64,000 nt of DNA, taken from NCBI GenBank assembly GCA_001798595.1, contig MGSS01000097.1:22333-86332 (forward strand), in the 5' to 3' direction. The first letter of the stretch is position 1. Every line of letters starts with the position of its first letter. Source of the DNA: Deltaproteobacteria bacterium RIFCSPLOWO2_12_FULL_60_19. GTDB lineage: Bacteria; Desulfobacterota; Binatia; UBA9968. Both the position numbers and the translations under genes were made by a program. This document shows, piece by piece, positions 16,163 through 53,059 of this stretch. A model generated the notes under the pieces. That model made no database searches, was not told the origin of the DNA, and saw only the letters and a program-made list of their open reading frames with translations.

Positions 16163-16178
16163 TGCAATCGAAATGCCA
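16163..16178 (-). promoter_or_regulatory. Sigma54 (-24/-12) promoter candidate
   Basis: Minus strand TGGCATTTCGATTGCA; GG-N10-GC spacing. Confidence 0.65.
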
Positions 16179-16386: not shown

Positions 16387-17754
16387 TTAGGTTAATCCGT
16401 GCTTTTTGAGTTTGTTGTAAAGCGCCCGGCGACTGATTCCGAGCTTCTCGGCCGCTTCCTTTTTATTCCCGTTGGTCAAGAAAAGAGTCGCCTTAATGAA
16501 CTCTCTCTCGACCGCATCAAGGGTGGTGCCGGCAAGCATCGGAAGGTGCGGGGCTGCGGCGGTGGTTTCGGCTGTGCCCGTAGTTCTAATTCTCAATGGG
16601 AGAAGGTCAGGCGTCAACTCGGGGCCCTTAGCCATCAACACCGCGCGCTGAATAACGTTCCTCAATTCCCGCACGTTGCCCGGCCAGGAGTAGCTCCTAA
16701 GACAGCGCCAGGTTTCGACCGCGATGGAGCGGACCTTTTTCTTATAGATGGAGTTGAAATGAGGCACAAAATGGTTGGTCAGGAGCGTGACTCCTCCCGG
16801 ACGCTCCCGAAGGGCCGGCACATGAATGTGAAAAACCTCGAGACGATAGAAAAGGTCTTCCCTGAACCTTTTCTGTTTGACCGCCTCTTCCAGGTTTTCA
16901 TTGGTGGCCGCAATCACCCGAACGTCAACGGGGATGTCCTTTTCCCCTCCGACGCGGCGGATGCTCTTGCTTTCCAGAACACGGAGGAGGCTGACTTGCG
17001 CCTTTTCGCTGATCGTGCTGATCTCATCGAGGAAGATCGTCCCGCCCTGGGCTTCTTCGAAACGCCCCTTGGTGGTCTCTACCGCGCCTGTGAAAGCGCC
17101 TCGTTCATGGCCGAAGAGTTCGCTTGCGACCAGTTCCGACGGCATGGCGCCGGTATTGACGGCGATGTAGGGGCTGTTTTTCCGCCGGCTCCTCTTATGG
17201 ATCGCCGCGGCGACCATGTCCTTGCCGGTACCCGTTTCGCCGGTGACCAATACGGAGATGTCCTCTGAAGCCGCCTCCAAAATCCGTTGAAATAGCTCCT
17301 GCATCGGCAGGCTGACCCCCAGCATGCCCTCGAACTCAAGGGGAATGCGCGCTTCCTGATCGATGCTCGCCCCATTTTTCAAGGCCTGCTGACGCAAGGC
17401 TTGAGTGACAAGCGCGCAGATCTCATCTTCATCCACGGGCTGAGTCAGGGTCCGGTGAGCGTAGCCTTTAAGTCGATCGAGGGGCAGAAGCCCTCCCTCC
17501 GGATCCGTCAAAACGATAGTGTACGTTCTGCTCGAATCTTTGGTAAGGAGATTGAGCAGCTCAAGCCCTTTCGACTGCTCCGTTTTCGATGTGTCCGCAT
17601 CCCAGATGAGCACGTCGTAGCCACCGGGCTTAAACTTTTCCAAAGCGCCACTAATAAAGGGCATGGCGTCCACAGAGAGGTCATGGCCCGCAAACCTCTG
17701 AGCGAGCAAGGCCTGAATCTTACCCGTCTTTTGGACCACCAAAAGTCGCAACAT
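16387..17754 (-). CDS. Sigma54-dependent transcriptional activator (NtrC family) with atypical receiver
   Basis: VTGETGTGKDM, ELFGHERGAFTGAVETTKGRFEEAQGGTIFLDEI, C-terminal Fis HTH NGNKKEAAEKLGISRRALYNKLKKHG. Confidence 0.93.
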   Translation of the reverse strand: MLRLLVVQKTGKIQALLAQRFAGHDLSVDAMPFISGALEKFKPGGYDVLIWDADTSKTEQSKGLELLNLLTKDSSRTYTIVLTDPEGGLLPLDRLKGYAHRTLTQPVDEDEICALVTQALRQQALKNGASIDQEARIPLEFEGMLGVSLPMQELFQRILEAASEDISVLVTGETGTGKDMVAAAIHKRSRRKNSPYIAVNTGAMPSELVASELFGHERGAFTGAVETTKGRFEEAQGGTIFLDEISTISEKAQVSLLRVLESKSIRRVGGEKDIPVDVRVIAATNENLEEAVKQKRFREDLFYRLEVFHIHVPALRERPGGVTLLTNHFVPHFNSIYKKKVRSIAVETWRCLRSYSWPGNVRELRNVIQRAVLMAKGPELTPDLLPLRIRTTGTAETTAAAPHLPMLAGTTLDAVEREFIKATLFLTNGNKKEAAEKLGISRRALYNKLKKHGLT

Positions 17755-29391: not shown

Positions 29392-29407
29392 TGGCATAGC
29401 CCTTGCT
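29392..29407 (+). promoter_or_regulatory. Sigma54 promoter candidate
   Basis: TGGCATAGCCCTTGCT, GG-N10-GC. Confidence 0.75.
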
Positions 29408-29445: not shown

Positions 29446-30795
29446 ATGCTCTTGCAAGCTACCTACACCCAGGGTTTCTTCTCTTTACGTCTGCTGACTG
29501 CGTCTATCTTTGCGACGGTTTTCTTACTGACAACGGGACACAGGGCGGCGTGGAGTCAGTCGACAGAAAAGGGAGAGTCTCGCATAGATAATGGGAGGGC
29601 GCTTATCCGTGACCTTGGCTGCGTTGTTTGCCATGAGATCAAAGACCAGGAGACAGCTGTACGAAGCGAAGCGCCGAATCTCACCTACGAAGGCGAAATC
29701 GTCCCGCGCGACTGGCTGTATGATTTTATCAAGAAACCCCACGGAATCAGACCCGCCATCAAGGCACGCATGCCCAATTTGAGGCTCGCCGACAGGGAGG
29801 CCCTCGCGATCACGGAATTCCTCGCGGGCTTGCGGGATGGGGAGACGGTTCCCAAAGAGTTTCGCTACCCGAGAAAGGTCTCGGCGGAGGAGACGGAAGC
29901 GGCAAAGAAGCTCGTCTCTCCGGATTATTTGAACTGCTTTAATTGCCATATGCTGGGCGACAAGAAACCAACCGGACAGCCGGAGGAATGGGCGCCGGAC
30001 CTGGCGCAGATAAAGGGCCGGATCAACCCGGACTTTCTCTTGAAGTGGCTGCGCGACCCGAGCAAATATCGGCCGGGAACAAAGATGCCGGCGTTCTTCC
30101 CGGACAAGGATTCGGGGCCGGATGATATTCTGGGCGGCGACGAGATGAGGCAGATGGCCGCGATCCGGGACTATCTCATGAGCATTGGGAAGGCTGAAAG
30201 TTTCCCTGAGTATGCCCAGGCCAAAGCTAGATTTGCAGACGTGACGCCATCTGAGGGAAGGTCATTGATGGTGAGGCTTAACTGCGTTGGCTGCCATGAG
30301 GTCGGAGTTCTCCCGCAAGGCAAAAAGGTCGGGCCCAATCTCACCTATGAGGGAAGCCGGGTCCGAAAAGATTGGCTGATCGGTTTTCTGCGCGCGCCTC
30401 ATACGATCAAGCCCGAATTTGCCTTGATGGGGAGTCCGACGCGGATGCCGACTTTTCCTCTGACAGTGGCGGAAACCCTTGCCGTTGCCGAGTATATCTC
30501 CCAGGCGCTGGTGGATAAGAACGTCCAGCAGGATGGTGGGATCGATCCCTCTCTTGCCAAAGGAGGACGAAGGCTTTTTAAGGAAAAAACCTGCGACAAC
30601 TGCCATCGAATCGGCTCCAGTCCGGGAGGCATCGGCCCCGATTTGACCGCGGCCGGAGAGAGGTTGCGCCCGGGATGGGTCATTAAATTCATTCAGAAAC
30701 CCGAGCACTACCTTGAGACACGCATGCCCAATCTGAAAGTTTCGCCGGAGGAGGCCAGGGCGTTGGCAGCCTACGTTTTTGGCCCCAAAAATTAG
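29446..30795 (+). CDS. Secreted c-type cytochrome with four heme-binding cyt c domains
   Basis: Four CXXCH (CVVCH, CFNCH, CVGCH, CDNCH), each with downstream Met-containing motifs. Confidence 0.88.
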   Translation: MLLQATYTQGFFSLRLLTASIFATVFLLTTGHRAAWSQSTEKGESRIDNGRALIRDLGCVVCHEIKDQETAVRSEAPNLTYEGEIVPRDWLYDFIKKPHGIRPAIKARMPNLRLADREALAITEFLAGLRDGETVPKEFRYPRKVSAEETEAAKKLVSPDYLNCFNCHMLGDKKPTGQPEEWAPDLAQIKGRINPDFLLKWLRDPSKYRPGTKMPAFFPDKDSGPDDILGGDEMRQMAAIRDYLMSIGKAESFPEYAQAKARFADVTPSEGRSLMVRLNCVGCHEVGVLPQGKKVGPNLTYEGSRVRKDWLIGFLRAPHTIKPEFALMGSPTRMPTFPLTVAETLAVAEYISQALVDKNVQQDGGIDPSLAKGGRRLFKEKTCDNCHRIGSSPGGIGPDLTAAGERLRPGWVIKFIQKPEHYLETRMPNLKVSPEEARALAAYVFGPKN

Positions 30796-30799
30796 CAGC

Positions 30800-32185
30800 A
30801 TGAGAATGGACGTCAGAAGCCGGCTTCCGCTTTTCGCGGTTCTTGTCGTTTGGCTCTTGTTGCCCGCCAGGACGGCCGATGCCGCTGCGGCCGAGAAAAA
30901 GTCCTGCCTCGGCTGCCACAGCAATCTCGCACAGCAGCGTTATGTCCATGGCCCGGTTGCGGCCGGGGAATGCGTCCGCTGCCATGAACCGGTCGACAAA
31001 GAGACGATGTACGATGCCAGTAAACATCGCTTCAAGCTGGCGCGGGAAGAGCGGGACATCTGCTACACCTGTCACGAAAGGCGCCTCGATGTTCAGAAAG
31101 TCGTTCACGGCCCGGTGCGCTTCGGGCTCTGCACGGCTTGCCACGATCCACACCAGTCGCCGAATCGTTATCGTTTGAAGGCTAGTCCGCCGAGCAAGCT
31201 CTGTTTTCAATGCCACATCAACGACAAGACCACCGATAAGGAAGTGCACGGCCCGGTGGCCGTGGGGGACTGCGTCGCCTGCCATGATCCCCACAGCTCG
31301 CCTTATCAGTATCGCTTGATCGCCCAGGGGCAGAATCTTTGTTTCACCTGCCATACGGAAAAAAAAGAAGAGTTTCTCTCCAAGAGATTCGGTCATCCGC
31401 CGGCGGTGATCAACTGCTCGAACTGCCATGATCCGCATACCTCCCCCAATCCGCTGCGCCTAAACAACTCGGTTCCGGCCTTGTGTTTTGGCTGCCATCC
31501 GGAAAAAAAGGACCATATCCGCAATGTCAAAACCGAGCACGACGCCTACAAAATCGATAAAAAGTGCTTGAACTGCCACGATCCCCACTACACGAACTTC
31601 CCCAAGCAATTGAAGGCAGCCCCGGCGGAGCTTTGTCTTTCCTGCCACAACAAGGAGTTGGATACTCCGACGGGAAAGATCGCCAACATGAAGAAATTGC
31701 TCGAGCAAAACCGCGACTGGCACGGGCCGATCCGGCAAAAAGATTGCCCGGCGTGTCATAACCCGCACGGCTCGGATAACATGCGCATCCTGAAGCGCTC
31801 CTATCCTCGGGACTTTTACGCGCCGTTCGCCGTGGAAAAATATGCGCTCTGCTTCGGCTGTCACGAGAAGACCCTGGCCCTCGATCGTTTCACCACCACG
31901 CTCACCAATTTTCGCAACGGAGATGAGAATCTGCACTTCCGTCACGTCAATCAGACGGTTAAAGGGAGGACCTGCCGAGCCTGCCACGAGGTCCACGCCA
32001 GCAACAACCCGAGACATATCCGCGATTCCGTCCCCTACGGCGAGTGGAACCTTCCAACGAACTACGTAAAATTTAGGAATGGAGGGAAATGCGCTTCCGG
32101 CTGTCATGTTCCCCGTGGCTACAGCCGGGCGAGAAAGGTTCAAAACCCGATCGACTATGAAAAATTCAATCCCGATCAATCGTAA
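30800..32185 (+). CDS. Multiheme cytochrome c (doubled-CXXCH type)
   Basis: 14 CXXCH plus one CX3CH (CASGCH); repeated VHGPV..GxCxxCHDPHxSP units. Confidence 0.93.
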   Translation: MRMDVRSRLPLFAVLVVWLLLPARTADAAAAEKKSCLGCHSNLAQQRYVHGPVAAGECVRCHEPVDKETMYDASKHRFKLAREERDICYTCHERRLDVQKVVHGPVRFGLCTACHDPHQSPNRYRLKASPPSKLCFQCHINDKTTDKEVHGPVAVGDCVACHDPHSSPYQYRLIAQGQNLCFTCHTEKKEEFLSKRFGHPPAVINCSNCHDPHTSPNPLRLNNSVPALCFGCHPEKKDHIRNVKTEHDAYKIDKKCLNCHDPHYTNFPKQLKAAPAELCLSCHNKELDTPTGKIANMKKLLEQNRDWHGPIRQKDCPACHNPHGSDNMRILKRSYPRDFYAPFAVEKYALCFGCHEKTLALDRFTTTLTNFRNGDENLHFRHVNQTVKGRTCRACHEVHASNNPRHIRDSVPYGEWNLPTNYVKFRNGGKCASGCHVPRGYSRARKVQNPIDYEKFNPDQS

Positions 32186-39552: not shown

Positions 39553-41625
39553 TTACGGCAGGTCTCCCGACGGCGGCCGATAGCTAAACCCGCTCATCAC
39601 AGCATTGCTGGGCGCGTGGCACTGGACCCAGCAACGCCGCTCCTTTGTAAGGGTGCTGAACTCCCACTCGGGCTTGGCCCTCCCGCCAATGGCGCGGACA
39701 TCGGGGTGAAAATTGACCAGCCGCGACGGAGTGCTCGGTGGCGGCGTGGTGGTAACGAAGCCGCTGATGTTGTACTGCGTGTTGGGCGCCTCCTGGTTGC
39801 TGTGGATATTATAGTGGCACGACTTGCACACGGCTCGCGCTTTGTCCACCTTATCGACCAAATGAAACCAGTGGAGGTTGCCCTTGCCCCTGTCGTTGGC
39901 GCAACCGCCGCAGCCTTCGTCATCAAAATTGCTCCGCGCGCCCTCACCGAACCTGCGCGACGTGAGCCGATTGACGTCATGGCAGCGAAAACAGAGATTG
40001 AAATTCGCCGAGCTCCAGAACGACGGCCCCGGGAGCGTGGTTTCATACCTAGCGCGGCGAATGCTCCCATAACTCGACCCGTGGGGCCCCACAGCAGTGG
40101 AGACCGACCCGTAGCTCGGTGCCCGGCCGGAGGTGCTCTCATAGGCTTCGCTGTTGTGACAATCGGTGCATTTGATGACCGAGTTGGTATTGAGGCCGTT
40201 GGGGGTGAGTTGATCGTTTAGGTTGGCAGAGCGATTTCGTCCGGGCCCTCCTATGGGATGGAACGCGCTGTTGGCGGTCTGGAACTCGATTTTCTTGTTG
40301 CTCGGCGTGGCGCCGCTCGGCAGCGTGCCCACACCGATGACGGTAGAATAGGTGTCCCCGTGACAACGAAGGCAGATGGGATATTGTTGCGCGCTCGGCG
40401 CGCCATCGGCCGGCGCCGGATCATTGATGACGTTCTGGACGGTATTACCGCTCAGGTCGATGCCGCGCATTCCCTCCGTGCGGTTCGTCCTTTTAACCTT
40501 GTGCGGATTGTGACAGTCCACGCACTCGACATGTTTCGAGTCCGTAAAGCGCGGGTCGGGCGCGGCCTGTCCAGGCTTTAGCAGAACTCCTTCCGGCAAA
40601 CCCGTCGGGGGAGTGGGAATGAAAACCGGTTTGTGCCCCGCATAGGACGCTATCGGCATACGCGAGATCTTGTTAAACTCGGACTGAATATCCTGGGCTA
40701 TCCCACCCGCGGCTGCCGACTTATGGCATAGGTAGCAGGTCTCTTCTATCGCCGAGGCGCCACCAACGGCTGCGTTGCGCAAAAGCCTCTCCGCCCCGTC
40801 GACCGTATGCGGGGTATGGCAGCCAAAACAGGAGTGGTCCCTCACCTGCGTCGTAGTCTGGTTCTTCGGCCAGAAAAAAGTGTCCGACTCATGCGTGCTT
40901 CCGACCCAGCCGGGCTTCTGATGGCAGGTGAGGCACAGGTTGTCGCTTTGCCCCGTAGGACTCTTGCGCAGGAATTTGCCGATCCTCCCCTCGTGCGGGT
41001 CGTGACACGAGGTGCACTGCACGGAGTCAATCACACCGGGATTGGCTCCCGGATAGAGCTTGATTGGCCCAGTGAGGAGCGCTGGATCGACCAGCTCCTG
41101 ATCGGCGGAGCGGAGCGCCTGGTCGAAGACAAACGAGATCGGATGATCGTTGGTTAAAGTCGTACCGATCAGAGTCGCGCCAAGCGGCAAGGGCGCTTCC
41201 AAGCCGCTCACTACGCTGGGCTGACCGCCAAGGTTACGCACGGAGCCGATCGCGATCGTTCCATCATGACAACTGAGGCAGAGTTTCGAGTAGCTCGTGG
41301 GTTGGCCCACGGAGGCTTGCAGTGAAGGGCTGGTGTATGGCACATAGTTGCCCGAAGCAAATTCCCGGTTCCAAAGAGGAGGCTGGAGAGGGTTGGCGCC
41401 GTGCGGCGTGTGGCAGAAAACACAGATCTGAGTCTCCGTGGTTGCCTTGATAGCTCCTGGACCCGTGACCGAGAGGTTGTGCTTGGTCTTGGCAATCCCC
41501 GTTACCTGGCCTATGGCATGCGGTGAGCTCAGAATCAGGATGAGGCCGACGATCTGAATAGTTGCCGCAGATTTCAATGCGCAATTTGAGATTTGCAATT
41601 TGAGATTCCTATCTTCGCGGCCCAT
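39553..41625 (-). CDS. Dodecaheme-type c-type cytochrome
   Basis: 690 aa with 11 CXXCH plus one CX3CH (CWVQCH). Confidence 0.92.
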   Translation of the reverse strand: MGREDRNLKLQISNCALKSAATIQIVGLILILSSPHAIGQVTGIAKTKHNLSVTGPGAIKATTETQICVFCHTPHGANPLQPPLWNREFASGNYVPYTSPSLQASVGQPTSYSKLCLSCHDGTIAIGSVRNLGGQPSVVSGLEAPLPLGATLIGTTLTNDHPISFVFDQALRSADQELVDPALLTGPIKLYPGANPGVIDSVQCTSCHDPHEGRIGKFLRKSPTGQSDNLCLTCHQKPGWVGSTHESDTFFWPKNQTTTQVRDHSCFGCHTPHTVDGAERLLRNAAVGGASAIEETCYLCHKSAAAGGIAQDIQSEFNKISRMPIASYAGHKPVFIPTPPTGLPEGVLLKPGQAAPDPRFTDSKHVECVDCHNPHKVKRTNRTEGMRGIDLSGNTVQNVINDPAPADGAPSAQQYPICLRCHGDTYSTVIGVGTLPSGATPSNKKIEFQTANSAFHPIGGPGRNRSANLNDQLTPNGLNTNSVIKCTDCHNSEAYESTSGRAPSYGSVSTAVGPHGSSYGSIRRARYETTLPGPSFWSSANFNLCFRCHDVNRLTSRRFGEGARSNFDDEGCGGCANDRGKGNLHWFHLVDKVDKARAVCKSCHYNIHSNQEAPNTQYNISGFVTTTPPPSTPSRLVNFHPDVRAIGGRAKPEWEFSTLTKERRCWVQCHAPSNAVMSGFSYRPPSGDLP

Positions 41626-42676
41626 CCGCCCCGGCCTCTCTTAAATACTGAAAAACCTGAATCCTGTTATTGTAAGAGTCGGCCACATAGATGCGGTCCT
41701 GCGGGTCGATGTAGATCCCCGTCGCCAACCAGAACTGCCCCGGACCGTTGCCCGGCCCGCCGAAGTTCAGCAGCAACCGCCCTGTCCGGTCAAAGATTAT
41801 GACCGTGTCAAAAAGCCCCTCCACAACATACACGTGTCCCTCGCTGTCGATGGCGATCCCCTTGGGCTTGGAGAAATCGCCCAGCGCGTCTCCGAGACGG
41901 CCAAAAAGGGAGATAAGGTTTCCCTGAGGATCGAAGACCTGGACACGGAAGTTAAGCGAGTCGGTCACGTAGAGAAAGCCCTTTCGGTCCACGGTGATAT
42001 TGGTGGGAAAGTTGAATTCACCGCTGCCATTCCCCCGGCGGCCGAATCGGCGTTGAAGTTTTCCCTGCGGATCGTAGACCAGAACCTCGTGCTGGAGGAC
42101 ATCGACCACGTAGATGAGTCCGTTGACCGGGTTGTAGGCGATACCCGCGGGCCTTTTCAGGCTCCCTTCACCGCCGATCTCGCCGATGAGTTTTCCTCCG
42201 GTGTCGTACTTCAATACGCGGCCCAGCTCCGCATCCGTGACGAATATCTGTTCCTGCGCGCCGATCGCGATATCGATCGGGAACTTCAATTTTTCCGGAT
42301 CGCCGATCTTGTTGTAGCTTTTCCCTTCGGGATCGAATACGTGGATCAGCCGGGCCACCGAGTCGACCACATAGATCCTTCCCCTGGCGTCCGTCTGAAT
42401 GCCGTAGGGTTTGACGATCCTTTCATCTTCGCTTCCGACGACAAACTCCCAGATCCTGCGCCAAAAGGATTTGGCGATCCCCAGGTCCTTGGGTGTGGCG
42501 ATTGTCCTAAGATATCTAATCCTAGGGGTTTCCGGCGGATTGGGCCAGGCCAACTCCGGAGCTGGCTGGGGCACCTCGGGAGGGGGCGCTCCCACCAGGG
42601 CGCATCCCTTAACTGCACAAGATACCAGGAAAAGTATAAGACCGGCCGTAACGATAAAATGCTTTATCGGCTTCAT
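41609..42676 (-). CDS. NHL-repeat / six-bladed beta-propeller lipoprotein
   Basis: Lipobox LFLVSCAVKG; repeated GIAxDSEGHVYVVEGLFDTVIIFD-type blades; start at MKPIKHF. Confidence 0.88.
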   Translation of the reverse strand: MKPIKHFIVTAGLILFLVSCAVKGCALVGAPPPEVPQPAPELAWPNPPETPRIRYLRTIATPKDLGIAKSFWRRIWEFVVGSEDERIVKPYGIQTDARGRIYVVDSVARLIHVFDPEGKSYNKIGDPEKLKFPIDIAIGAQEQIFVTDAELGRVLKYDTGGKLIGEIGGEGSLKRPAGIAYNPVNGLIYVVDVLQHEVLVYDPQGKLQRRFGRRGNGSGEFNFPTNITVDRKGFLYVTDSLNFRVQVFDPQGNLISLFGRLGDALGDFSKPKGIAIDSEGHVYVVEGLFDTVIIFDRTGRLLLNFGGPGNGPGQFWLATGIYIDPQDRIYVADSYNNRIQVFQYLREAGADGPRR

Positions 42677-42709
42677 CCTGGCATGCTGGGAGGTCCAACA
42701 ATTAGCCAA

Positions 42710-42773: not shown

Positions 42774-44477
42774 TCAAAAACGGAATCTGAAGGGCCGATT
42801 GATCGTGATCATCACGGCGTGCGCCTGCCCGGGCTGGTCAAAGCTCTTATGGGATTCGAAGCGGTACTCGAAATTAACCGTCGATTGACCGAATTGGTAA
42901 AGCGCCCGAGTTGTTAGTTCATAGCGGGTCAGCTGGTTCAAGGTATCGGTTTCCCACAGGCCGCTCAGCTGAATGGTTAACCGATCTCTAGGCCGATAGT
43001 TGACGTTAGCCGTGACGCGCATCAGCCAAGAGGAGCTTATATCGGTCTGAGTTCGGACCGCGTTCGCCCCCAGATCGAGATAGAGTTGCGGGATACCCGT
43101 GTAACTCAAGCCGCTGCCGATGGCGATGGTTGTCTGCTTCGAGGAGATCGTGGCCTCGCGATCGGAAAATGTGGCATCCTCGCGGAAAAAATCCGCGTTG
43201 GAGCGCAAAATAAGGCTTGGGGTAACGGGCGCGTCGGCGCGCAAGCTTGCCTGGTGGCGATTCCGCTCTGTGAGAGTGCGCTCCAGAGTAAACATATAGT
43301 CGCCGCGTAGGCGTACCGGTTTAAGAAAAGTGCTCTCAAGACCCGCGTGAACCTGTTGGGTCATGCCTATATTGGTCTCTTCCGATCCTTCTTTGGTGTA
43401 GGAAACGCCGGCGCCGTAGTCGACACTGGCGATCAGGGAGGGGAAGTAGGTCGATACCACGGATGTTCCCAAAGACCCGTTCGCGAGCAGCGAGTTCCCC
43501 GTGGATGTTCCCGAAGACCCGTTCGCGAGGGGCGAGTTCCCCATCTCGCCGGAGTCGAACCGCCGGGAGACGAAAGTGGCGGCGAAGGGCCTGATCGACA
43601 GGGTCGGATACGGCTGATACGCTTTGGACAAGCTCCCATTGGCATCCAGGGTGGTCTGTTCTTGCCCATCGATGCTTGTGTTTCGGACCCCGAGGCCTAA
43701 GCTGCGGGTGAGAGTCGGGTCGGGCCGGTTAAGCAGAGAGAAGTTGGCGCCCATGCTGCGGCTCCCCTCTTGCATGAAATAGTCTCCTATCAGTCGCAGG
43801 GTCGTGGCCGGGCTCCAGGGGGTTGTGTCGCTGAACCTGCCGAAGTGTCTTAAGATAGAAGTGCCCTGGACGTTGTCGGAAAAATGCTGTACGCCAAATT
43901 CCGCGTCGACGTCGGAGTCGAAGATCCTTTTCGCCAAACGCAAGGTACCCGTGGTGAAGGTGGTGTCGGCTTCTGTTTGTCCCGTGTTTTGAATGTTGAC
44001 CCGATCAAAGTTAAGAAAAACCGACGGCCACTCCTGATAGACGACCCGCCAGCTCCCGCCGAAGGATAGGACGTCCGTATTTGAAGCGCTGGTAAGACGA
44101 GATTTAGAGAAGCGGAGATCCAGCGGATAGGGTTTCCCCGGTAGCAACGTGACGTTAGTGAGCAGCGATAGCAAACGGGAGTCGACGGCCGCGGATTGCT
44201 GATTGGAACTGAGATCCGACGTTGACAGGGCGCCTGCGATGTTAAACGTGGCGAGACGCGCGTCGAGGATGTTTCCCTGGAGTCCCAAATTGTAACTGTT
44301 GGTCCTAGCCATGCTCCAGTTGGCGACCTCTCCCTCTATCTGCTTCGAATAACTGAAACCGCTCCCTAGATTCCCGGAAACATTAAGGCCCAATTGCGCC
44401 GTCGCGTCCGTCAAATTGAGAAAGAAGGAAGCGGCGAAAACCAAAAGCAGTGTGTTTGTCCGGGGATGGCGCATCAA
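42774..44477 (-). CDS. Predicted outer-membrane beta-barrel protein
   Basis: Signal peptide; alternating amphipathic strands throughout, C-terminal terminal-Phe-type strand (AHAVMITINRPFRFRF). Confidence 0.75.
   Translation of the reverse strand: MMRHPRTNTLLLVFAASFFLNLTDATAQLGLNVSGNLGSGFSYSKQIEGEVANWSMARTNSYNLGLQGNILDARLATFNIAGALSTSDLSSNQQSAAVDSRLLSLLTNVTLLPGKPYPLDLRFSKSRLTSASNTDVLSFGGSWRVVYQEWPSVFLNFDRVNIQNTGQTEADTTFTTGTLRLAKRIFDSDVDAEFGVQHFSDNVQGTSILRHFGRFSDTTPWSPATTLRLIGDYFMQEGSRSMGANFSLLNRPDPTLTRSLGLGVRNTSIDGQEQTTLDANGSLSKAYQPYPTLSIRPFAATFVSRRFDSGEMGNSPLANGSSGTSTGNSLLANGSLGTSVVSTYFPSLIASVDYGAGVSYTKEGSEETNIGMTQQVHAGLESTFLKPVRLRGDYMFTLERTLTERNRHQASLRADAPVTPSLILRSNADFFREDATFSDREATISSKQTTIAIGSGLSYTGIPQLYLDLGANAVRTQTDISSSWLMRVTANVNYRPRDRLTIQLSGLWETDTLNQLTRYELTTRALYQFGQSTVNFEYRFESHKSFDQPGQAHAVMITINRPFRFRF
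43458..43544. repeat. In-gene tandem duplication (2 x ~42 bp) in the barrel gene
   Basis: (C)CACGGATGTTCCCAAAGACCCGTTCGCGAGCAGCGAGTTC / CCGTGGATGTTCCCGAAGACCCGTTCGCGAGGGGCGAGTTC. Confidence 0.85.
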
Positions 44478-44833
44478 TACCCCTTCATCGACCTCTGCTT
44501 CTTGCGGTAGACGGGAACGGCTAATCCCTGTTTTCTAAGGGAACGGAGATCCCGCTTGATGGTGCTTTTGCTGGTTAGAAGAAGATTTGTCAGATCCTCG
44601 TAGGCAAGAAGCGCTTCCTGTTCATGAGCCTCTGTGCAGAGGCGCAAGAGGCGGGCCTGACGCAAAAAAGCCAGTCCCCGGTTGACAAGGATCTCATCAT
44701 CCTCCTCGGCGATGACGGTGAGAAGCACCGTTTTTTTTCTCAGAGATAACGTGGCGGGCTTTGCGATATAGGCATCGTGGAGTATCTTTCCTCGTTCGTG
44801 GAGTGGTTGTTCAAGGAATTTCACCGCTTCCAT
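44474..44833 (-). CDS. DUF1670-like / HTH protein
   Basis: 119 aa; QARLLRLCTEAHEQEALLAYEDLTNLLLTSKSTIKRDLRSLRKQGLAVPVYRKKQ. Confidence 0.55.
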   Translation of the reverse strand: MEAVKFLEQPLHERGKILHDAYIAKPATLSLRKKTVLLTVIAEEDDEILVNRGLAFLRQARLLRLCTEAHEQEALLAYEDLTNLLLTSKSTIKRDLRSLRKQGLAVPVYRKKQRSMKGY

Positions 44834-44925: not shown

Positions 44926-45717
44926 TTACTTTAGATGGCAGGTGATACAGAGGGCGCTGGCAGTATTGGCGGCCCGTAGAAACATCACGCTTCCCCCGGT
45001 CCCGCTCTGGGCGGCAAAGCTCCTGGCCTCATGGGGATCATGACAGGAGCCGCACTCCACCTTCGCAGTCGCTTGACTCGATCCATAAAGGGGTAAAGTG
45101 ACCGTACCGTTCACTACGGTCCACCTGTTGCCAGAGCCGGCTGAAGCTCTAAAGCCGGCCGCATGGGTGTCCTCGCCGATGGCGCCCCCTGTCCCATAGC
45201 TAAGGGCATCAGCGTAATTCATCGACACCGGATGGTCGTCGCTGAGATCCCTGCCGATAAGAGCCATATTGTTGACCCCCGGAGGAACAGTGCCGATCTG
45301 GTTGCTGGAATCAGGGTTGGGAACAAACGCTGCCCCACTCCCTCTGCCTGGCCAGTTGATCAATTGATTCAAGCCCAAGGTTCCATCATGACAGCTCAGG
45401 CAGGCCTTGGAGACTCCGGTGGGAGGGTTGCTTCGCGCGGCGTCAACCGTGTAGCTGTTATAGACCGTGAATGCGCCACCTGTGGTCGGGTCGTAATTCC
45501 TGTTCCACAGAGGAGCCCAATCTCCAGCAGGATCAATCGCCTTTTTACCCCCGTGCGGCGTATGGCAGTATACGCAGATTTCGTCCACTGCGCCTTTTAT
45601 ACCGTTAGGGCCGCCGGAACTCAGATTATGCAGTGAGCTTGCGATCTGGGCAGATGCAAGGGAGGCGAAGGCTAAGAACCCGATCCCCACTGCAACCAAT
45701 GTGATAAATTTTTTCAT
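44926..45717 (-). CDS. Tetraheme c-type cytochrome (doubled-CXXCH type)
   Basis: CVYCH, CLSCH, CGSCH, CITCH; signal peptide. Confidence 0.9.
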   Translation of the reverse strand: MKKFITLVAVGIGFLAFASLASAQIASSLHNLSSGGPNGIKGAVDEICVYCHTPHGGKKAIDPAGDWAPLWNRNYDPTTGGAFTVYNSYTVDAARSNPPTGVSKACLSCHDGTLGLNQLINWPGRGSGAAFVPNPDSSNQIGTVPPGVNNMALIGRDLSDDHPVSMNYADALSYGTGGAIGEDTHAAGFRASAGSGNRWTVVNGTVTLPLYGSSQATAKVECGSCHDPHEARSFAAQSGTGGSVMFLRAANTASALCITCHLK

Positions 45718-45747: not shown

Positions 45748-45763
45748 AGCAGGCGCCGTGCCA
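45748..45763 (-). promoter_or_regulatory. Sigma54 promoter candidate
   Basis: Minus TGGCACGGCGCCTGCT, GG-N10-GC. Confidence 0.75.
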
Positions 45764-45910
45764 TGCTTTCACAAAATTGAAGGGCCAGTGAAACGTGAAA
45801 AAAACCGGCGTGATACTAACGAGTTAGAAATTCGATGGGGCAGGAGACGGGAGCGAAAGTGTTTGTTTGATCACTAGGCCTGGAAGAACGATTGTTACTA
45901 ATTCGCACAG

Positions 45911-45927
45911 TGTGCGGATTCCGCATA
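45911..45927. promoter_or_regulatory. Candidate upstream activator site
   Basis: TGTGCGGATTCCGCATA, ~147 bp upstream of the 45748-45763 promoter. Confidence 0.6.
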
Positions 45928-45939
45928 GTTTCGGAGCGA

Positions 45940-46986
45940 TTATCCAGCTTTTGTTTTAGCCACCTTCGCACGGTATTTTTCTCCCAGGTACTGGAAGACC
46001 TGCACCCGGCGGTTGTAGGAGTCCACGACGTAAATCTTATCCTCGTTATCGATGTGCATACCTGCCGGAAGCCAGAAAGTTCCGGGGCGGTGACCGGCAG
46101 CCCCTACAAAGAGATAGAGCCTTCCCTCTTCATCAAAGATCTGGAAATTGTCAAAGGCGGCATCTGCCACGTAGATATGGCCTTCGCTGTCCGCGGCGAC
46201 GCCTCTCGGCCGGGCGAGCTGTCCGGGACCGTCTCCGACATCGCCGAACTTCTTTAAGTACTTTCCGTCGAGGTCAAAGATTTGAATACGAAAGTTGCCC
46301 GTGTCCGTGATGTAGAGTTTGCCGTTGCCGATAAACAGATTGGTTGGGAAATTAAGCTCACCGTCCTCTTTACCTCTTTTGCCAAACTCAAAGGCGAAGC
46401 TTCCGTCAGCGCTATTGTAAACCCTGATTTTGTGCGCCCGGGGATCGGCTACGTAGAGGCGGCCGGAGGCTCTGTCGATTGCCAGGCCCGAAGGGTTGAT
46501 CAGTTCGTCCTTTTTACCTATCGCCACCACAAGGTTGCCTTCTCGGTCAAGCCCAAAGACTCGCTGCAGAACGACATCCGAAACAAAAATGATGCCCCGA
46601 TCGTCCACCGCAATCCCGATAGGCTGTTTGAGTTGTCCCTGACCGGAAGTTCCAAGAAAACTGACTTTCTTTTCTTTTTCGTCGAAGACCCAGACTGCCC
46701 CTTGCCCGCTGTCGGTTACGTAAACTCTCCCTTCCTGGTCGGTTGCAACCCCATAGGGCTTGGACATGGCGCCGCTTACGTCCTCGCCGAAGAGAGTCTC
46801 AAGCCAGCTCCTTCCAGAGCGGCCAAACTCATCGACTTGGGAAAGGCTTCTGATGTATCTGATGCGAGGCGTCTCCGGGGGATTGGGCCAAACCATATCC
46901 ACGGGTTTTTCCACTGCCTGAGGGGCGCAACCCGCGAGGAGCACAACAACCGTATAGCACAAACCTATGCTGCGGAGATTTTTCAT
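45940..46986 (-). CDS. NHL-repeat / six-bladed beta-propeller lipoprotein, paralog of 41609-42676
   Basis: Shares WPNPPETPRIRY(L/I)R; NHL blades; lipobox VVLLAGCAP. Confidence 0.88.
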   Translation of the reverse strand: MKNLRSIGLCYTVVVLLAGCAPQAVEKPVDMVWPNPPETPRIRYIRSLSQVDEFGRSGRSWLETLFGEDVSGAMSKPYGVATDQEGRVYVTDSGQGAVWVFDEKEKKVSFLGTSGQGQLKQPIGIAVDDRGIIFVSDVVLQRVFGLDREGNLVVAIGKKDELINPSGLAIDRASGRLYVADPRAHKIRVYNSADGSFAFEFGKRGKEDGELNFPTNLFIGNGKLYITDTGNFRIQIFDLDGKYLKKFGDVGDGPGQLARPRGVAADSEGHIYVADAAFDNFQIFDEEGRLYLFVGAAGHRPGTFWLPAGMHIDNEDKIYVVDSYNRRVQVFQYLGEKYRAKVAKTKAG

Positions 46987-47008: not shown

Positions 47009-48376
47009 CTATTCGTCGCCCGGCTTCAGGGGAATGCCGAGTCGCGTGGCCTTGTCGTACAGGGTCCTTCGGCCGATGCCGATTCTCTTCGCCGCCTCGC
47101 TCTTGTTCCAGTTGCATTCGAGTAGGGTCCTCTCGATCAGTTGCTTCTCGAGTTCTTCTAAAGTGGAAAGCGGATGCGCACCGTTGTTGGTCGGCGGGCC
47201 CAACGGAAGATCGCCCGGCTGAATGACCCCACCGCAAGCCATGATCATGGCCCTCTCAAGAGCATTCTCCAGCTCCCGAATATTTCCAGGCCAGGAATAG
47301 GCCATCACCGCGTCAAGCGCCTTTTTGCTCAGCCCTTCGATCTTCTTCGTCATTCTCAAGGATAGCCGGTGCAAGGAATGCTCCACGAGCAGAGGGATGT
47401 CTTCCCTTCTCTCTCGCAAAGGCGGCAGATGGATATGGACGACGCCGAGACGATAAAAGAGATCGTCGCGAAATGCGCCCTTTGCGATTTCTTTTTTAAG
47501 GTCCTTGTTTGTGGCGGAGATAATACGCACGTCCACGCTGAGATTCTTTGTGCCGCCAACCCGCTTGAGCTCGTTTTCCTCCACCGCCCTGAGAAGCTTG
47601 GCCTGAAAGGCGAGACTCGTATCACCGATCTCATCGAGATAGAGCGTCCCCCGATCCGCAAGCTCGAAGAGTCCTTTCCTGCTCGCAACGGCGCCGGTGA
47701 ATGCTCCTTTCTCGTGGCCGAACAGCTCGCTCTCCAAGAGGCTCTCCGTCAGGGCCACGCAGTTAACGGCGAAGAACTTCTCTTTTCTTCTTGGACTCAT
47801 CCGGTGAACTGCCCGAGCGATCACCTCCTTGCCTGTTCCGCTTTCTCCTGTCAGGAGAACTCGGCATTCCGTCTCCTTCAGCCGGTCCAGGGCCTCGAGG
47901 ATTCTTTTTATGGGGTCGCTTTTCCCGATGATCTCGGGCGCGGAAGACAGCCCCTGCATCTCCTCACGGAGGGAGCGGTTTTCATCGAGGAGCCGGGCAT
48001 GATTCAAGGCTTTCTTTATTTTGAGAAGCAAATCGTCCGAGTGGAACGGCTTTGACAGAAAATCGTCAGCCCCTTTTTTCATTGCCTCCACAGCGGCATC
48101 GATGGTCGCGCAGCCGGTAACCACGATGACGGGCAGATAGGGGTAATCTTTTTTAATGAGTTCTAGAACTTCCAAGCCACCGCCTCCCGCGATCTTTGGC
48201 CCGAAGACAAGGAGGTCCGGCTGACTGTTGGCGATTAAATCTTGCGCCTTGCCGCCATCGGAATTGACCGTACAGTCGAAGCCGGCCCGGGCCAACGTCA
48301 GGCCGATTGACTCCGCCATATCGGCGCTGTCATCGAGGACCAGAATCCGCGCCTTCCCTTCCACCATAGCTCGCAC
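47009..48376 (-). CDS. Sigma54-dependent activator (NtrC family), receiver lacks phospho-Asp
   Basis: ELFGHEKGAFTGAVASRKGLFELADRGTLYLDEIGD; Fis HTH NWNKSEAAKRIGIGRRTLYDKATRLG; receiver PDLLVFGPKIAG. Confidence 0.93.
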   Translation of the reverse strand: MRAMVEGKARILVLDDSADMAESIGLTLARAGFDCTVNSDGGKAQDLIANSQPDLLVFGPKIAGGGGLEVLELIKKDYPYLPVIVVTGCATIDAAVEAMKKGADDFLSKPFHSDDLLLKIKKALNHARLLDENRSLREEMQGLSSAPEIIGKSDPIKRILEALDRLKETECRVLLTGESGTGKEVIARAVHRMSPRRKEKFFAVNCVALTESLLESELFGHEKGAFTGAVASRKGLFELADRGTLYLDEIGDTSLAFQAKLLRAVEENELKRVGGTKNLSVDVRIISATNKDLKKEIAKGAFRDDLFYRLGVVHIHLPPLRERREDIPLLVEHSLHRLSLRMTKKIEGLSKKALDAVMAYSWPGNIRELENALERAMIMACGGVIQPGDLPLGPPTNNGAHPLSTLEELEKQLIERTLLECNWNKSEAAKRIGIGRRTLYDKATRLGIPLKPGDE

Positions 48377-48382
48377 CAGGCC

Positions 48383-49660
48383 CTAGGGGTGATGAGCGGG
48401 GAGAGAAATCGAAAAGAACGATCCCTCTCCAGGACTGCTTTTGACTGAAATCAAGCCATTATGCTTTTTGATGACGCTGAGACTTGTGGATAAACCCAGC
48501 CCGATCCCGCCTGTATTGTGCTTCGTGCTGAAGAACGGATTGAAGATCCTTTCGAGGTTGTCTTTGGAAATTCCCACCCCATTATCGGTTATCGCGCATT
48601 CCACGACTCCTCCATCCTCGGAACTCAGGCGCGTGGCGATCTCGATGGTCCCACCATGAGGAAGGGCATCTATGGCATTGCTGATGAGATTGATCAACAC
48701 GCCCTTAAGTTCGTAGGGGTCACCCATAATCAGAGGAAGGCGGGGCATAAGTCGCTTTTCTAACTTGATACCCCTCTCCTTAAGTCCTCTTTCCATCAGC
48801 AGGAGATTTTCCTCGACCAGTTGGTTGAAATCGAGCGGCTTCATCTCAAAGCCCTTTTGCTTCGAGAGAGTCGACAGGGCTTTGGTGACCTGAGCCAACT
48901 GATGGCTGGACCTGTGGATGACCTCCAATCCTGAAATGAACTCTTGCGCGAAGCCGCGCTCGCGGGCTTCCTGCATCAAGACCTCCGCACGGATGGCCAT
49001 GACTCCGCAAGGACCGTTGATGCTTTCTGAGATTTCGCCGATGAGTTTGCCGATCGAGAGGTGACGGTAGGTCATCTCAAGGATTGTGTTTTTGCGGGAG
49101 AGTTCCTGGTTTAACTCCTCTACGATTTTCCTCGCTTTTTTTTCTCGCTCCGCCAAGAGACCCAGGGAGCAAGTGATCAGGAAAAGAAAGATAATACGCA
49201 GCGCAAAGTCCGGCCACGAAGCGATGGACAAGCCGCCGCGATCGAGGTGCGCAGCGAGATAAAAGATGGACGAAAGCAGCGCCGCGGCCAGGCCGGTCTT
49301 GAGGCCAAAGTAAAATGAATGGACGGCAACCAGCAGGTAGAATGCTAGGAAATAGCTTCCCCGCACCTGCCCAATGTATCGTACCAAGGTGAAGGCAAAA
49401 ATGAGGTCCACTGCGAGCGTGGTCAAATAAAAAGATCGAACGGCGTCGGGCCAACGAAAGATGCCCGCATAGAGCAGGCAACTATAAATCGAGTACAGCG
49501 AGAGTAGCCAGATCAGGATCTCTTTGCGCAGCGGATCATACGGGACAACGAGATACCACAGCCAACCGCCGACGACGGTAAAAAGGCGCAGAGCCAGAAA
49601 ATAGAAATCCACCCTCTCTGCGAGAGGCTGCTTCCATCGGAGACTCAGAGAATTCAGCAT
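48383..49660 (-). CDS. Membrane sensor histidine-kinase-like protein, H-box His absent
   Basis: 6 TM, HATPase motifs LISNAIDALPHGG, DNGVGISKDNLERIFNPFFSTKHNTGGIGLGLS; H-box position reads GEISESINGPCGVM. Confidence 0.88.
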   Translation of the reverse strand: MLNSLSLRWKQPLAERVDFYFLALRLFTVVGGWLWYLVVPYDPLRKEILIWLLSLYSIYSCLLYAGIFRWPDAVRSFYLTTLAVDLIFAFTLVRYIGQVRGSYFLAFYLLVAVHSFYFGLKTGLAAALLSSIFYLAAHLDRGGLSIASWPDFALRIIFLFLITCSLGLLAEREKKARKIVEELNQELSRKNTILEMTYRHLSIGKLIGEISESINGPCGVMAIRAEVLMQEARERGFAQEFISGLEVIHRSSHQLAQVTKALSTLSKQKGFEMKPLDFNQLVEENLLLMERGLKERGIKLEKRLMPRLPLIMGDPYELKGVLINLISNAIDALPHGGTIEIATRLSSEDGGVVECAITDNGVGISKDNLERIFNPFFSTKHNTGGIGLGLSTSLSVIKKHNGLISVKSSPGEGSFFSISLPAHHP

Positions 49661-49684
49661 AGAAGTTCCCAATTGATAACACCC

Positions 49685-49699
49685 GCAAACGCTGTGCCA
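49685..49699 (-). promoter_or_regulatory. Sigma54 promoter candidate
   Basis: Minus TGGCACAGCGTTTGC, GG-N10-GC, 25 bp upstream of the 49660 start. Confidence 0.75.
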
Positions 49700-49853
49700 T
49701 TTTTGCCCAGCCGTTGTCTCCCGCCGATACACGACTGAGACGAGCAAGAGAGGTGCTCGCAAGCTATGGATCACAATGCATAATTGGTTGATTTTCTGAG
49801 TGATTTACGCTTGAGCGGCTGGTTATTGAGCTACGGTATGCACTGTGGACTGC

Positions 49854-49870
49854 TGTGCGGAATCCGCACA
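49854..49870. promoter_or_regulatory. Candidate upstream activator site (perfect palindrome)
   Basis: TGTGCGGAATCCGCACA, ~155 bp upstream of the 49685-49699 promoter. Confidence 0.65.
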
Positions 49871-49954: not shown

Positions 49955-50674
49955 CTAGTTTTTGACCAACTCGAACGTCACTTTGGCGTCTTCACCTGTC
50001 TTGACCGTAACCTCTTTAGTCAGTTTTCCCAGCGTCTCGTGCCAGACCTCCATCTTATGAATTCCCGGAGGGACATCGGTAAGTTTAAACGAGCCGGCGC
50101 CGTCGGTTGGCACTGCATAAGGATGGTCGGTAACCACAATCCAACCTACCATCCATGGGTGGGCGTCGCAGGTTAGTTTGATAATCTCCGGCTGGCCAAA
50201 GGTCTCCGTCATTTTCTTTTTGAAGCCCGGCTGTGCCTTATTGATCGGCGTGTTCTTGGTGCTGTAGGTGTGAACGTTGTGCAGGATGCCGTCGTTGTTG
50301 AGGATATCGACCGGAGCGCCCGCCGGAGCAACGACAACGCGTGGAGTAAACGCGCAACCTTTTTGATCGAGGACGACATTCTTGTCAGTCTTGACACCGC
50401 TGCCTTTGACTCCTATGAGACTCACCACGGCGTTCTTAACACCTCGGTCCGCAGATACAACCAGGTCATCCGCAAATCGCTCTGTGCCGCATTTCTCCTT
50501 GTCCTTTGTTATCTCCAGCTTTCGAAGCTGCGGGGCGTCACGGCTGATCATCACCCGCCCGGATATGCTCCCCGTAGATTGGGCGGATACCGCTCGGATT
50601 AGGTCTCCACTCAACGAGGCCAATCCCCACAAAAACAGCCCCCCAACGATTGATCCTTTCATTAATCGACCCAT
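49955..50674 (-). CDS. Exported cupredoxin-like (plastocyanin-type) domain protein with C-terminal carboxypeptidase-regulatory-like domain
   Basis: VDILNNDGILHNVHTYS...KLTCDAHPWMVGWIVVTDHPYAVPTDGAGSFKLTDVPPGIHKMEVWHE. Confidence 0.8.
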   Translation of the reverse strand: MGRLMKGSIVGGLFLWGLASLSGDLIRAVSAQSTGSISGRVMISRDAPQLRKLEITKDKEKCGTERFADDLVVSADRGVKNAVVSLIGVKGSGVKTDKNVVLDQKGCAFTPRVVVAPAGAPVDILNNDGILHNVHTYSTKNTPINKAQPGFKKKMTETFGQPEIIKLTCDAHPWMVGWIVVTDHPYAVPTDGAGSFKLTDVPPGIHKMEVWHETLGKLTKEVTVKTGEDAKVTFELVKN

Positions 50675-50716
50675 TATGTGCTCCTTTCCTGTTGAGATTT
50701 TAACTCGCTCACGCTG

Positions 50717-50732
50717 AGCAATTCTTATGCCA
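50717..50732 (-). promoter_or_regulatory. Sigma54 promoter candidate
   Basis: Minus TGGCATAAGAATTGCT, GG-N10-GC, upstream of 50674. Confidence 0.7.
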
Positions 50733-50885
50733 TGAACCGCCGGCCGTAGGTGCGACAAGAAGGAGCTGCCACTCCTGATGCAGCGCTTGTTAGAGAGGGA
50801 GAACGGGCGCGACAGCTTTCTTCTGTGCAAAAAGTCGCAGCGGGGGATCGGCGTTGCCATCCCTTTGTACAGTTCTCCCTTATAG

Positions 50886-51083: not shown

Positions 51084-51629
51084 ATGTTAAGCAAAGCCCA
51101 TAGCAGATTGGGGAATGCTGCCGGGATAGCTCTGGCCGCGCTATTTCTTACAGCCGCGCAGGGAATGGGTCAAACTGATACCACTCCTCCCGCTAGCCAC
51201 ACGATCTTTGTGACGGGTTTGGAAGTCAAGGGGGGAACAACCGTAGACAAGTTAGCGCCGCCTTCCATTAACCCAAAGGATCTCTCCAGGGGCTACGACT
51301 TCAAGCCGCCGGGGGAGGCTGACAAGGCGAATCCGAAAAGGTGGGAGGTTTCCAGCTATAGGTTTGATCCAGGTTTTGTAACTGTTCGCCAAGGGGATAC
51401 CGTGAAGCTGGTTGTTTTCATTGTCAACGGCGATAAGCACCTGGTATGGATCGCTGCTCCCGATGGGAAGAAAGCCGTGAGCGATACGGTTTGGAGCCGG
51501 GGCCGAGAGTACGTGCTTCAATTCGTAGCGGAGAAAACCGGCGTCTACCATCTCGTATGCTCGGAGCACGCCCCAACCATGGCCGTCACCATCCTGGTTC
51601 TGCCGGGCAGGCAAGTAATTAACCCGTGA
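51084..51629 (+). CDS. Exported cupredoxin-domain protein
   Basis: FVTVRQGDTVKLVVFIVNGDKHLVWI...GVYHLVCSEHAPTMAVTILVL (C-x2-H-x3-M copper-site pattern). Confidence 0.82.
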   Translation: MLSKAHSRLGNAAGIALAALFLTAAQGMGQTDTTPPASHTIFVTGLEVKGGTTVDKLAPPSINPKDLSRGYDFKPPGEADKANPKRWEVSSYRFDPGFVTVRQGDTVKLVVFIVNGDKHLVWIAAPDGKKAVSDTVWSRGREYVLQFVAEKTGVYHLVCSEHAPTMAVTILVLPGRQVINP

Positions 51630-53059
51630 TAAGGTTAGATTTCAAGACTCCTTCTTCTCCCTTGCGCCTCTTTACCCGTTTTGCGGTCGCGGGGCTCATT
51701 GGGTTTCTTGTTATCTCTCTTCTTCTCTTTTATCTTTGGACGCGGACATTCGAGCGCCGCCTGATCGCCGAAACCAAAGAGACCCGAGCAAGATACACCA
51801 ACGCTCTGGTTGGGCATATGCTCACGCGCGACGACTTCGCCGGCGTTAAAAAGGGAGCCGAGTGGGCGGTCTTCCGAGAAAAGATCTCGGATCTCTTTTC
51901 TATGCCGGAGGTGGTGCGAGTTAAAATTTATAACCCAGAGGGAATTCTGATCTGGTCCGACTCCGTGAAGCTTATGGAACTTGCTCCTCAGGCACAGAAG
52001 AACCCGCAATTGATCAGCGCGCTCGCCGGCCGTGTCGAGGCCAATATCTCCACTCTGGGGAAAGAGGAACACCGGTTTGAGCGGGGCGCTTTCCGCAGCC
52101 TCATGGAACTTTATGTGCCCGTTCATTTCACCCAAGGAGAACCGCCGGCCGGAGTGGTGGAGGTGTATCTCAACCTCGACCCCCTCTTTGCAACGATTGG
52201 GGACACCAGCAGGCTGATCGGGCTAACCGTCGTCGGCGGCTTAGGGCTTCTTCTGGCCGTTTCTTTCACCGGTCTAGGCCGCGCGGTTGTAGTCATTCAC
52301 AAGCAGAATCAGGAACTCCGCGACCGTTTAGAAGAGATCTTTAAAACTACCCGGATGAAAAACGAGATCTTCGCCGAGCTCTCGCATGAGGTGCGCAATC
52401 CTCACGCCGTTATGAGCTACGCCAATCTTCTCTGGCATGGAGCCTTCGGGGACTTGCCGGAAAAAACAAGGAAAGCGAAACCTCCGTTGGACAAGTTGCG
52501 CAACACCGCTGCGGAAGTTCTCTCCCATTTCGCAAGAATTGTGGAACTCTCGCGGCTCAAGGTTGGCGATGTCCAGCCCCAAAGAGAACCGGTTGAGCTG
52601 ATTGAGCTTCTCCGGGGAGTCGCGAACGACCTCCGCCTTCTCTCGGGAAACGGCACCGTAAAACTGAGCTTGGCGGTCCCTTCGGACCCTGTGATCATCA
52701 ACTCTGACCAAAGGCTGCTGCAGCAGGTGGTTTTTAATCTTGTAACCAACGCCCTCAAATTTACTCCCAGCGGGGAGATCGCTGTGTGTTTGGAGAGAGA
52801 CTTGGCTCTGGGCCGGGTCATGATTGTCGTGGAGGACACGGGGATTGGGATTAAGCCGGATGAGTTGCCTAGGATCTTTGAAGATTTTTACCGCGGAAAT
52901 CATCTCGACGCCCGTTTTAACAGCGGTGTTGGACTTGGCTTGGCCATCGTGAAGAGGTCACTTGAGCTTTTAGAAGGGGAAATCCAAGTAGAGAGCCTTT
53001 ACGGCAAAGGATCGAAGTTCACAGTGACTTTGCAGGAAGGCTTCAAGCGAGCCGCATGA
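51626..53059 (+). CDS. Sensor histidine kinase (H-box intact)
   Basis: GTGA overlap with preceding gene; ELSHEVRNPHAVMSYANLLWHG; DTGIGIKPDELPRIFEDFYRG...GVGLGLAIVKRSLELLEGEI. Confidence 0.92.
   Translation: MIRLDFKTPSSPLRLFTRFAVAGLIGFLVISLLLFYLWTRTFERRLIAETKETRARYTNALVGHMLTRDDFAGVKKGAEWAVFREKISDLFSMPEVVRVKIYNPEGILIWSDSVKLMELAPQAQKNPQLISALAGRVEANISTLGKEEHRFERGAFRSLMELYVPVHFTQGEPPAGVVEVYLNLDPLFATIGDTSRLIGLTVVGGLGLLLAVSFTGLGRAVVVIHKQNQELRDRLEEIFKTTRMKNEIFAELSHEVRNPHAVMSYANLLWHGAFGDLPEKTRKAKPPLDKLRNTAAEVLSHFARIVELSRLKVGDVQPQREPVELIELLRGVANDLRLLSGNGTVKLSLAVPSDPVIINSDQRLLQQVVFNLVTNALKFTPSGEIAVCLERDLALGRVMIVVEDTGIGIKPDELPRIFEDFYRGNHLDARFNSGVGLGLAIVKRSLELLEGEIQVESLYGKGSKFTVTLQEGFKRAA

Follow-up and report, generated by a model that had tools for sequence, protein, structure and literature searches.

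A pseudo-receiver sigma54 activator and its co-operonic pseudo-histidine kinase beside a multiheme-cytochrome cluster

Introduction

How might an NtrC-family sigma54 activator be controlled when its receiver lacks the phospho-accepting Asp, and the kinase encoded beside it lacks the phospho-accepting His, that a canonical two-component system requires? Such a pair lies in the window analyzed here, a 64,000-nucleotide stretch of the genome of Deltaproteobacteria bacterium RIFCSPLOWO2_12_FULL_60_19. According to a 2025 review, the ways in which bacterial pseudo-receivers work "remain a mystery" (PMC12632262); here, one such receiver and a pseudo-kinase are encoded in a single operon. The locus also comes with an evolutionary series in three grades, from intact through loss of the His alone to loss of both residues, and its predicted promoters and near locus-exclusive operator allow control of a receiver by contact alone to be tested directly.

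Results

The operon reads, 5′ to 3′ on the minus strand, HK2 (the kinase), the activator, and an NHL-repeat protein, with a gap of 6 bp between HK2 and the activator (Table 1). The activator ORF is a complete gene with a GTG start, the ATG at 48367 being the likelier start judging from orthologs. Its receiver still matches Response_reg (PF00072) at E 2e-20 despite the Asp-to-Gly change and retains the acidic pair (LDDS), the Thr (VVTG), the Lys (SKPF), and, with the Thr and Lys, the aromatic K-3 residue of the Y-T coupling switch. The preliminary description had placed a Gly at the phospho-Asp site, and we confirmed this: a HMMER alignment matches the Gly column with the phospho-Asp of the solved NtrC-family regulator 4l4u. 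It had also described the output domains as intact, and Pfam finds the AAA+ (Sigma54_activat, with GAFTGA), lid, and Fis-type HTH domains complete, the first and last being the domains that a bEBP requires. The nearest solved full-length proteins are the NtrC1-type 4l4u and 1ny5, with ZraR (1ojl) also related; our structure model of the activator is of low confidence because the alignment is shallow.

HK2 is closest by sequence and structure to ZraS (9jfj), with ZraS-type DHp and ATPase domains. Alignment of its H-box (GEISESINGP) with that of ZraS (AGVAHEIRNP) puts Glu at the His position, bearing out the earlier claim of a partner kinase without His, and the ATP-binding boxes N, G1, F, and G2 are all intact. 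HK2 thus has the hallmarks of a pseudo-histidine kinase, a DHp-CA region that has lost the phospho-accepting His and kept its ATP boxes. The structure model, of moderate confidence (mean pLDDT 71), shows N-terminal helices followed by DHp/CA. Translation most likely starts at the ATG at 49660, not at the GTG at 49774, because a -24/-12 promoter sits within the longer ORF. With both His and Asp missing, the sequences rule out ordinary phosphotransfer from HK2 to the activator at both ends.

Table 1. Features of the locus, in window coordinates
Feature	Position	Strand	Basis or remark
11-heme cytochrome	39553..41625	-	Domain search, heme motifs
Second NHL-repeat protein	41609..42709	-	Domain search
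Putative outer-membrane beta-barrel	42774..44477	-	Position conserved; without Pfam match, barrel presumed
DUF1670 protein, after tetraheme cytochrome	44474-44833		
Tetraheme cytochrome (4 CXXCH), own promoter; probable first target gene	44926..45717	-	Domain search, heme motifs
Sigma54-type promoter TGGCACGGCGCCTGCT before tetraheme cytochrome gene	45748..45763	-	Motif scan
Predicted double operator TATGCGGAATCCGCACACTGTGCGAA upstream of tetraheme cytochrome	45902..45927	.	Motif search
NHL-repeat protein, third gene of operon	45940..46986	-	Domain search; ortholog at same position in G007, G013
NtrC-family sigma54 activator, pseudo-receiver	47009..48376	-	Pfam Response_reg, Sigma54_activat, AAA_lid_14, HTH_8; translation
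Codon GGG (Gly) at phospho-Asp position; residue 59 counted from GTG	48200..48202	-	Translation, alignment
HK2, membrane-helical pseudo-histidine kinase (His to Glu), ATPase boxes intact, ATG start	48383..49660	-	HATPase_c; ZraS alignment; structure model
H-box codon GAA (Glu) at His position	49025..49027	-	ZraS alignment, translation
Sigma54-type -24/-12 promoter TGGCACAGCGTTTGCG, 23 bp before HK2 ATG	49684..49699	-	Motif scan; orthologous sites in G007, G013
Predicted operator dyad TGTGCGGATTCCGCACA, ~160 bp upstream of -24 of HK2 promoter	49854..49870	.	Motif search
HK1, neighboring kinase, intact His (ELSHEVRNP)	51626..53059	+	H-box reading; homologs in HK2-regulator operon of G004, G121

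Relatives of HK2 at E ≤ 1e-12 occur in 6 of the 148 genomes of the class. The HK2-activator pair is also found in three further genera of the family (genomes G007, G013, and G004), adjacent and co-operonic in all four, and the activator is 69% identical to those of G007 and G013 and 50% to that of G004. In G007 and G013, the same NHL and cytochrome genes adjoin the pair. A scan of genome contigs recovered just three loci, each belonging to this family and recorded as Deltaproteobacteria MAGs, and a plasmid search returned generic NtrC relatives alone. Across the phylum, related membrane-domain kinases keep an ordinary HExxNP wherever the H-box is readable.

The His-to-Glu change is present in all four HK2 proteins of the family, arguing against recent decay, and the receivers carry a range of states. 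The phospho-Asp codon specifies Gly both here (GGG) and in G007 (GGC); G013 has the Asp (GAT), with the acidic pair changed to Glu-Ser and metal ligand DD2 lost to Ser; and the site is intact in G004 (GAT), though its kinase lacks the His. In outgroup G121 both the kinase His (VAHHINNP) and the receiver are intact, and outgroup G035 reads VAHNINNP; the acidic residue after the His is already gone in both. Because every family kinase is His-less, the receivers are variously lesioned or intact, and G121 keeps both residues, the His was lost first and the receiver chemistry later, by lesions that differ between lineages. The preliminary description had proposed a co-loss of His and Asp. Both are indeed absent here and in G007, but simultaneous loss is ruled out by G004 and by the differing receiver lesions, and the ortholog survey was mixed for the Asp, which is absent from two of the three close receivers, disabled by other means in the third, and intact in the more distant G004. 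The definition of a pseudo-receiver given by Bourret et al. (PMC12632262) covers all three close receivers (here, G007, and G013). Published frequencies are 0.9% for His-less HisKA domains and 2.0% for Asp-less receivers (PMC12632262); given two such rare states, and a pair repeated in the independent MAG G007, the double loss exceeds chance. Branching among the three close orthologs stays unsettled in the regulator tree (84/21), the kinase tree (84/83), and the concatenated tree. Flanking genes favor own,(G007,G013), and on this grouping the Asp was therefore lost (D to G) twice, or lost once and regained.

Two further kinase loci were seen in G007. One (L037 16013-17404, +) encodes a chimera that joins a membrane domain of HK2 type to a kinase core of HK1 type whose His is intact (SLSHEVRTP). 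The other (L038 394-3056, +), a neighboring kinase-regulator pair, retains both His and Asp, is related to the activator, and comes with a sigma54-type site and a cytochrome cluster of its own.

A kinase that the preliminary description of the locus had left out, HK1, is encoded 2 kb from the pair, in an operon that runs divergently and also contains a pseudoazurin-like gene, and is conserved beside the locus in G007 and G013. In G004 and G121, an HK1-homologous kinase (~28% identity; HEINNP/HEVNNP) directly precedes HK2 and the regulator. We infer that the system originally had three genes, and that the true kinase moved out of the operon while the regulator dropped its phospho-site and stayed with the pseudo-kinase.

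To compare constraint, dN/dS was calculated per domain by Nei-Gojobori counts; it is ~0.08–0.15 for the receiver, HTH, DHp, and ATPase domains wherever dS is unsaturated, dS being near saturation overall. Identity among the three close activators is 62–66% in the receiver, 74–80% in the AAA+ domain, and 75–86% in the HTH. These values indicate that the receiver is evolving faster than the AAA+ and HTH domains, yet under constraint, and that purifying selection continues to act on the receiver and DHp. Assembly error is ruled out by the orthologs in independent MAGs together with the low dN/dS.

RpoN is encoded in the same genome. The -24/-12 site before HK2 has counterparts in the same position in G007 (TGGCACATCAATTGCA, a perfect match) and G013 (TGGCACACGAATTGCC), and that of the tetraheme cytochrome is likewise present in all three genomes, with one or two mismatches; in G004 and G121, a -24/-12 site precedes a heme-motif gene located after the regulator. 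The window holds 7 such sites with at most one mismatch, versus 1.8 expected, and none of 100 shuffles reached seven. About 140–160 bp upstream of the two promoters sit the predicted operator dyads. Copies of TGTGCGGATTCCGCACA within one mismatch are confined to this locus in the whole 4.2-Mb genome, and in the G007 and G013 genomes to the orthologous cytochrome promoter; in outgroup G121, a related dyad, GTGCGGTTGCCGCAT, of which none is expected by chance, precedes the cytochrome gene that follows the regulator. Because the dyad is locus-restricted and a related one is present in G121, the operator is probably local and older than the loss of the phospho-site. The dyad as such was not found at the G007 HK2 promoter; in both G013 (L039 5120-5160) and G007 (L037 14640-14690), an operator-like variant sits right against the HK2 -24 element rather than 160 bp upstream of it, possibly for autorepression. 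Position and co-occurrence point to the activator as the protein that binds the dyad, although another factor could in principle do so. The DUF1670 protein was considered as the operator's owner and is disfavored, no homolog being found in the operator-bearing G013 stretch or in the G121 stretch. With RpoN, promoters, operators, and intact AAA+ and HTH domains all present, the activator is probably a working sigma54 regulator.

Several further sigma54-type features were observed in the window. Site TGGCATAGCCCTTGCT (29392-29407, +) lies directly before cytochrome genes 29446-32185, and another site (50717-50732, -) falls inside the over-long ORF 49955-50860, whose true start is probably the ATG of MGRLMKGSIVGG. 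A second sigma54 activator (16387-17754, -), with no kinase noticed adjoining it, has a degenerate receiver (VVQKTG, DVLIWDADTS, LTQPV) that has lost the acidic pair and Lys; immediately behind it comes a -24/-12-like site (16163-16178, -), which in turn precedes a tripartite tricarboxylate transporter (11405-13471, -).

Discussion

We consider it reasonably probable that the pseudo-kinase gates the pseudo-receiver activator by protein contact and so drives its own operon and the multiheme-cytochrome cluster. The membrane helices at the N terminus of HK2 would detect a membrane or redox-related signal, and its DHp and ATP-binding domains, with ATP or ADP bound, would shift position in response. 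HK2 would then dock on the pseudo-receiver and, depending on its state, hold the activator inactive or release it. The freed AAA+ ring, acting from its dedicated dyad operator, would open the sigma54 promoters of the operon and of the adjacent multiheme-cytochrome/NHL/barrel cluster. We infer the contact, the sign of control, the nucleotide dependence, and the signal alike. Contact control would fit the retention of the ATP-binding domain, the DHp, the receiver fold, and the switch residues. NtrC1-type receivers repress the AAA+ domain, and because the nearest solved relatives of the activator (4l4u and 1ny5) are of this type, relief of repression seems the likelier sign. According to their entry titles, PDB 6rh7 and 6rh8 hold a crystallized complex of HK853 H260A with RR468 D53A; docking, on this showing, therefore needs neither His nor Asp. 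A histidine kinase and a Nif-specific regulatory protein are listed jointly in PDB 9qq6. Given the His-less kinase and intact receiver of G004, HK2 may at first have been an adaptor rather than a direct input.

Among the points that weigh against this contact reading is HK1, which has an intact His 2 kb away and could signal to the activator without Asp chemistry. HK1 might be the true input to the activator or to HK2, phospho-dependent or allosteric, with HK2 in an accessory adaptor role comparable to that of DivL toward CckA. Its conservation by the locus in G007 and G013, and its co-operonic homologs in G004 and G121, would suit such a role, which we nonetheless judge improbable: the activator has no means of accepting phosphate at its usual position, HK1 here belongs to a divergent operon of its own, and its identity to the G004 and G121 kinases is only ~28%. 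It is unlikely, if slightly less so, that the activator is constitutive, its pseudo-receiver non-regulatory, control resting on its own abundance through sigma54 autoregulation, and HK2 vestigial or serving elsewhere. The Asp and metal-ligand losses would suit a relaxed need for receiver chemistry, and the operon does own a sigma54 promoter, but purifying selection on the receiver and on HK2 DHp/CA, the kept switch residues and ATP boxes, and the co-operonic position of HK2 in all four genomes argue otherwise.

Modification of the receiver elsewhere (on Ser, Thr, Cys, or another Asp) by another enzyme has been discussed for pseudo-receivers (PMC4395418, PMC12632262); it is highly improbable here, as the orthologs show no conserved substitute acceptor at the site and no obvious modifying enzyme was found in the cluster. 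Early pseudogene decay of a two-component system, which the disappearance of active-site residues from both partners might suggest, is hardly credible, given full-length ORFs across several genera at 60–69% identity, low dN/dS, conserved promoters and operators, and a His loss common to four genera.

Gating by contact thus remains our preferred reading. The preliminary proposal of a phosphotransfer-independent sigma54 switch fares well on the sequence side, with the residues missing, the proteins conserved under selection, and the AAA+, HTH, promoters, and operators intact; direct contact stays at the level of a model, and the redox or ligand input that it suggested is unproven. We give about even chances to the fuller account, in which the system shed phosphotransfer stepwise to become a contact-only, nucleotide-gated membrane switch with a private operator, controlling an extracellular-electron-transfer cytochrome conduit. 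The locus reveals one order in which phosphotransfer can be given up.

To call this an undescribed system, as had been suggested, is an overstatement: contact control is known from NifL-NifA, and pseudo-receivers and pseudo-kinases have each been described separately. An operonic pseudo-kinase/pseudo-receiver pair driving a sigma54 activator was not found described in the open-licence papers searched. The nearest relatives by sequence and structure, the ZraS-ZraR, AtoS-AtoC, and NtrC1-type systems, have a phosphorylated His and Asp, both of which are lost here. The Asp-less regulators FleQ, RitR, HP1043, and NblR share the receiver fold without phosphotransfer residues (PMC4395418, PMC12632262); of the bacterial atypical regulators reviewed, 18 of 20 are orphans (PMC12632262), whereas the activator described here shares its operon with a pseudo-kinase. 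Pseudo-histidine kinases such as DivL are signaling adaptors with a kinase fold that lacks the phospho-accepting His (PMC4211667), but DivL acts with CckA and phospho-DivK, whereas the partner receiver of HK2 is itself dead. In Azotobacter vinelandii, NifL, a kinase-like protein with a GHKL nucleotide-binding domain, controls the sigma54 activator NifA by direct complex (PMC12540587, PMC8219145), which ADP stabilizes (PMC12540587). By analogy, our pair would work like NifL-NifA, a kinase-like protein controlling a sigma54 activator by (here presumed) contact, yet falls outside that system, because Pfam finds no PAS or GAF domains in it at E ≤ 0.001 and the NCBIfam NifL and NifA models match it only below their cut-offs. 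Where NifL senses through PAS domains and NifA carries a GAF domain, our pair sets a membrane-helical sensor opposite a pseudo-receiver in a ZraS/NtrC1-type frame.
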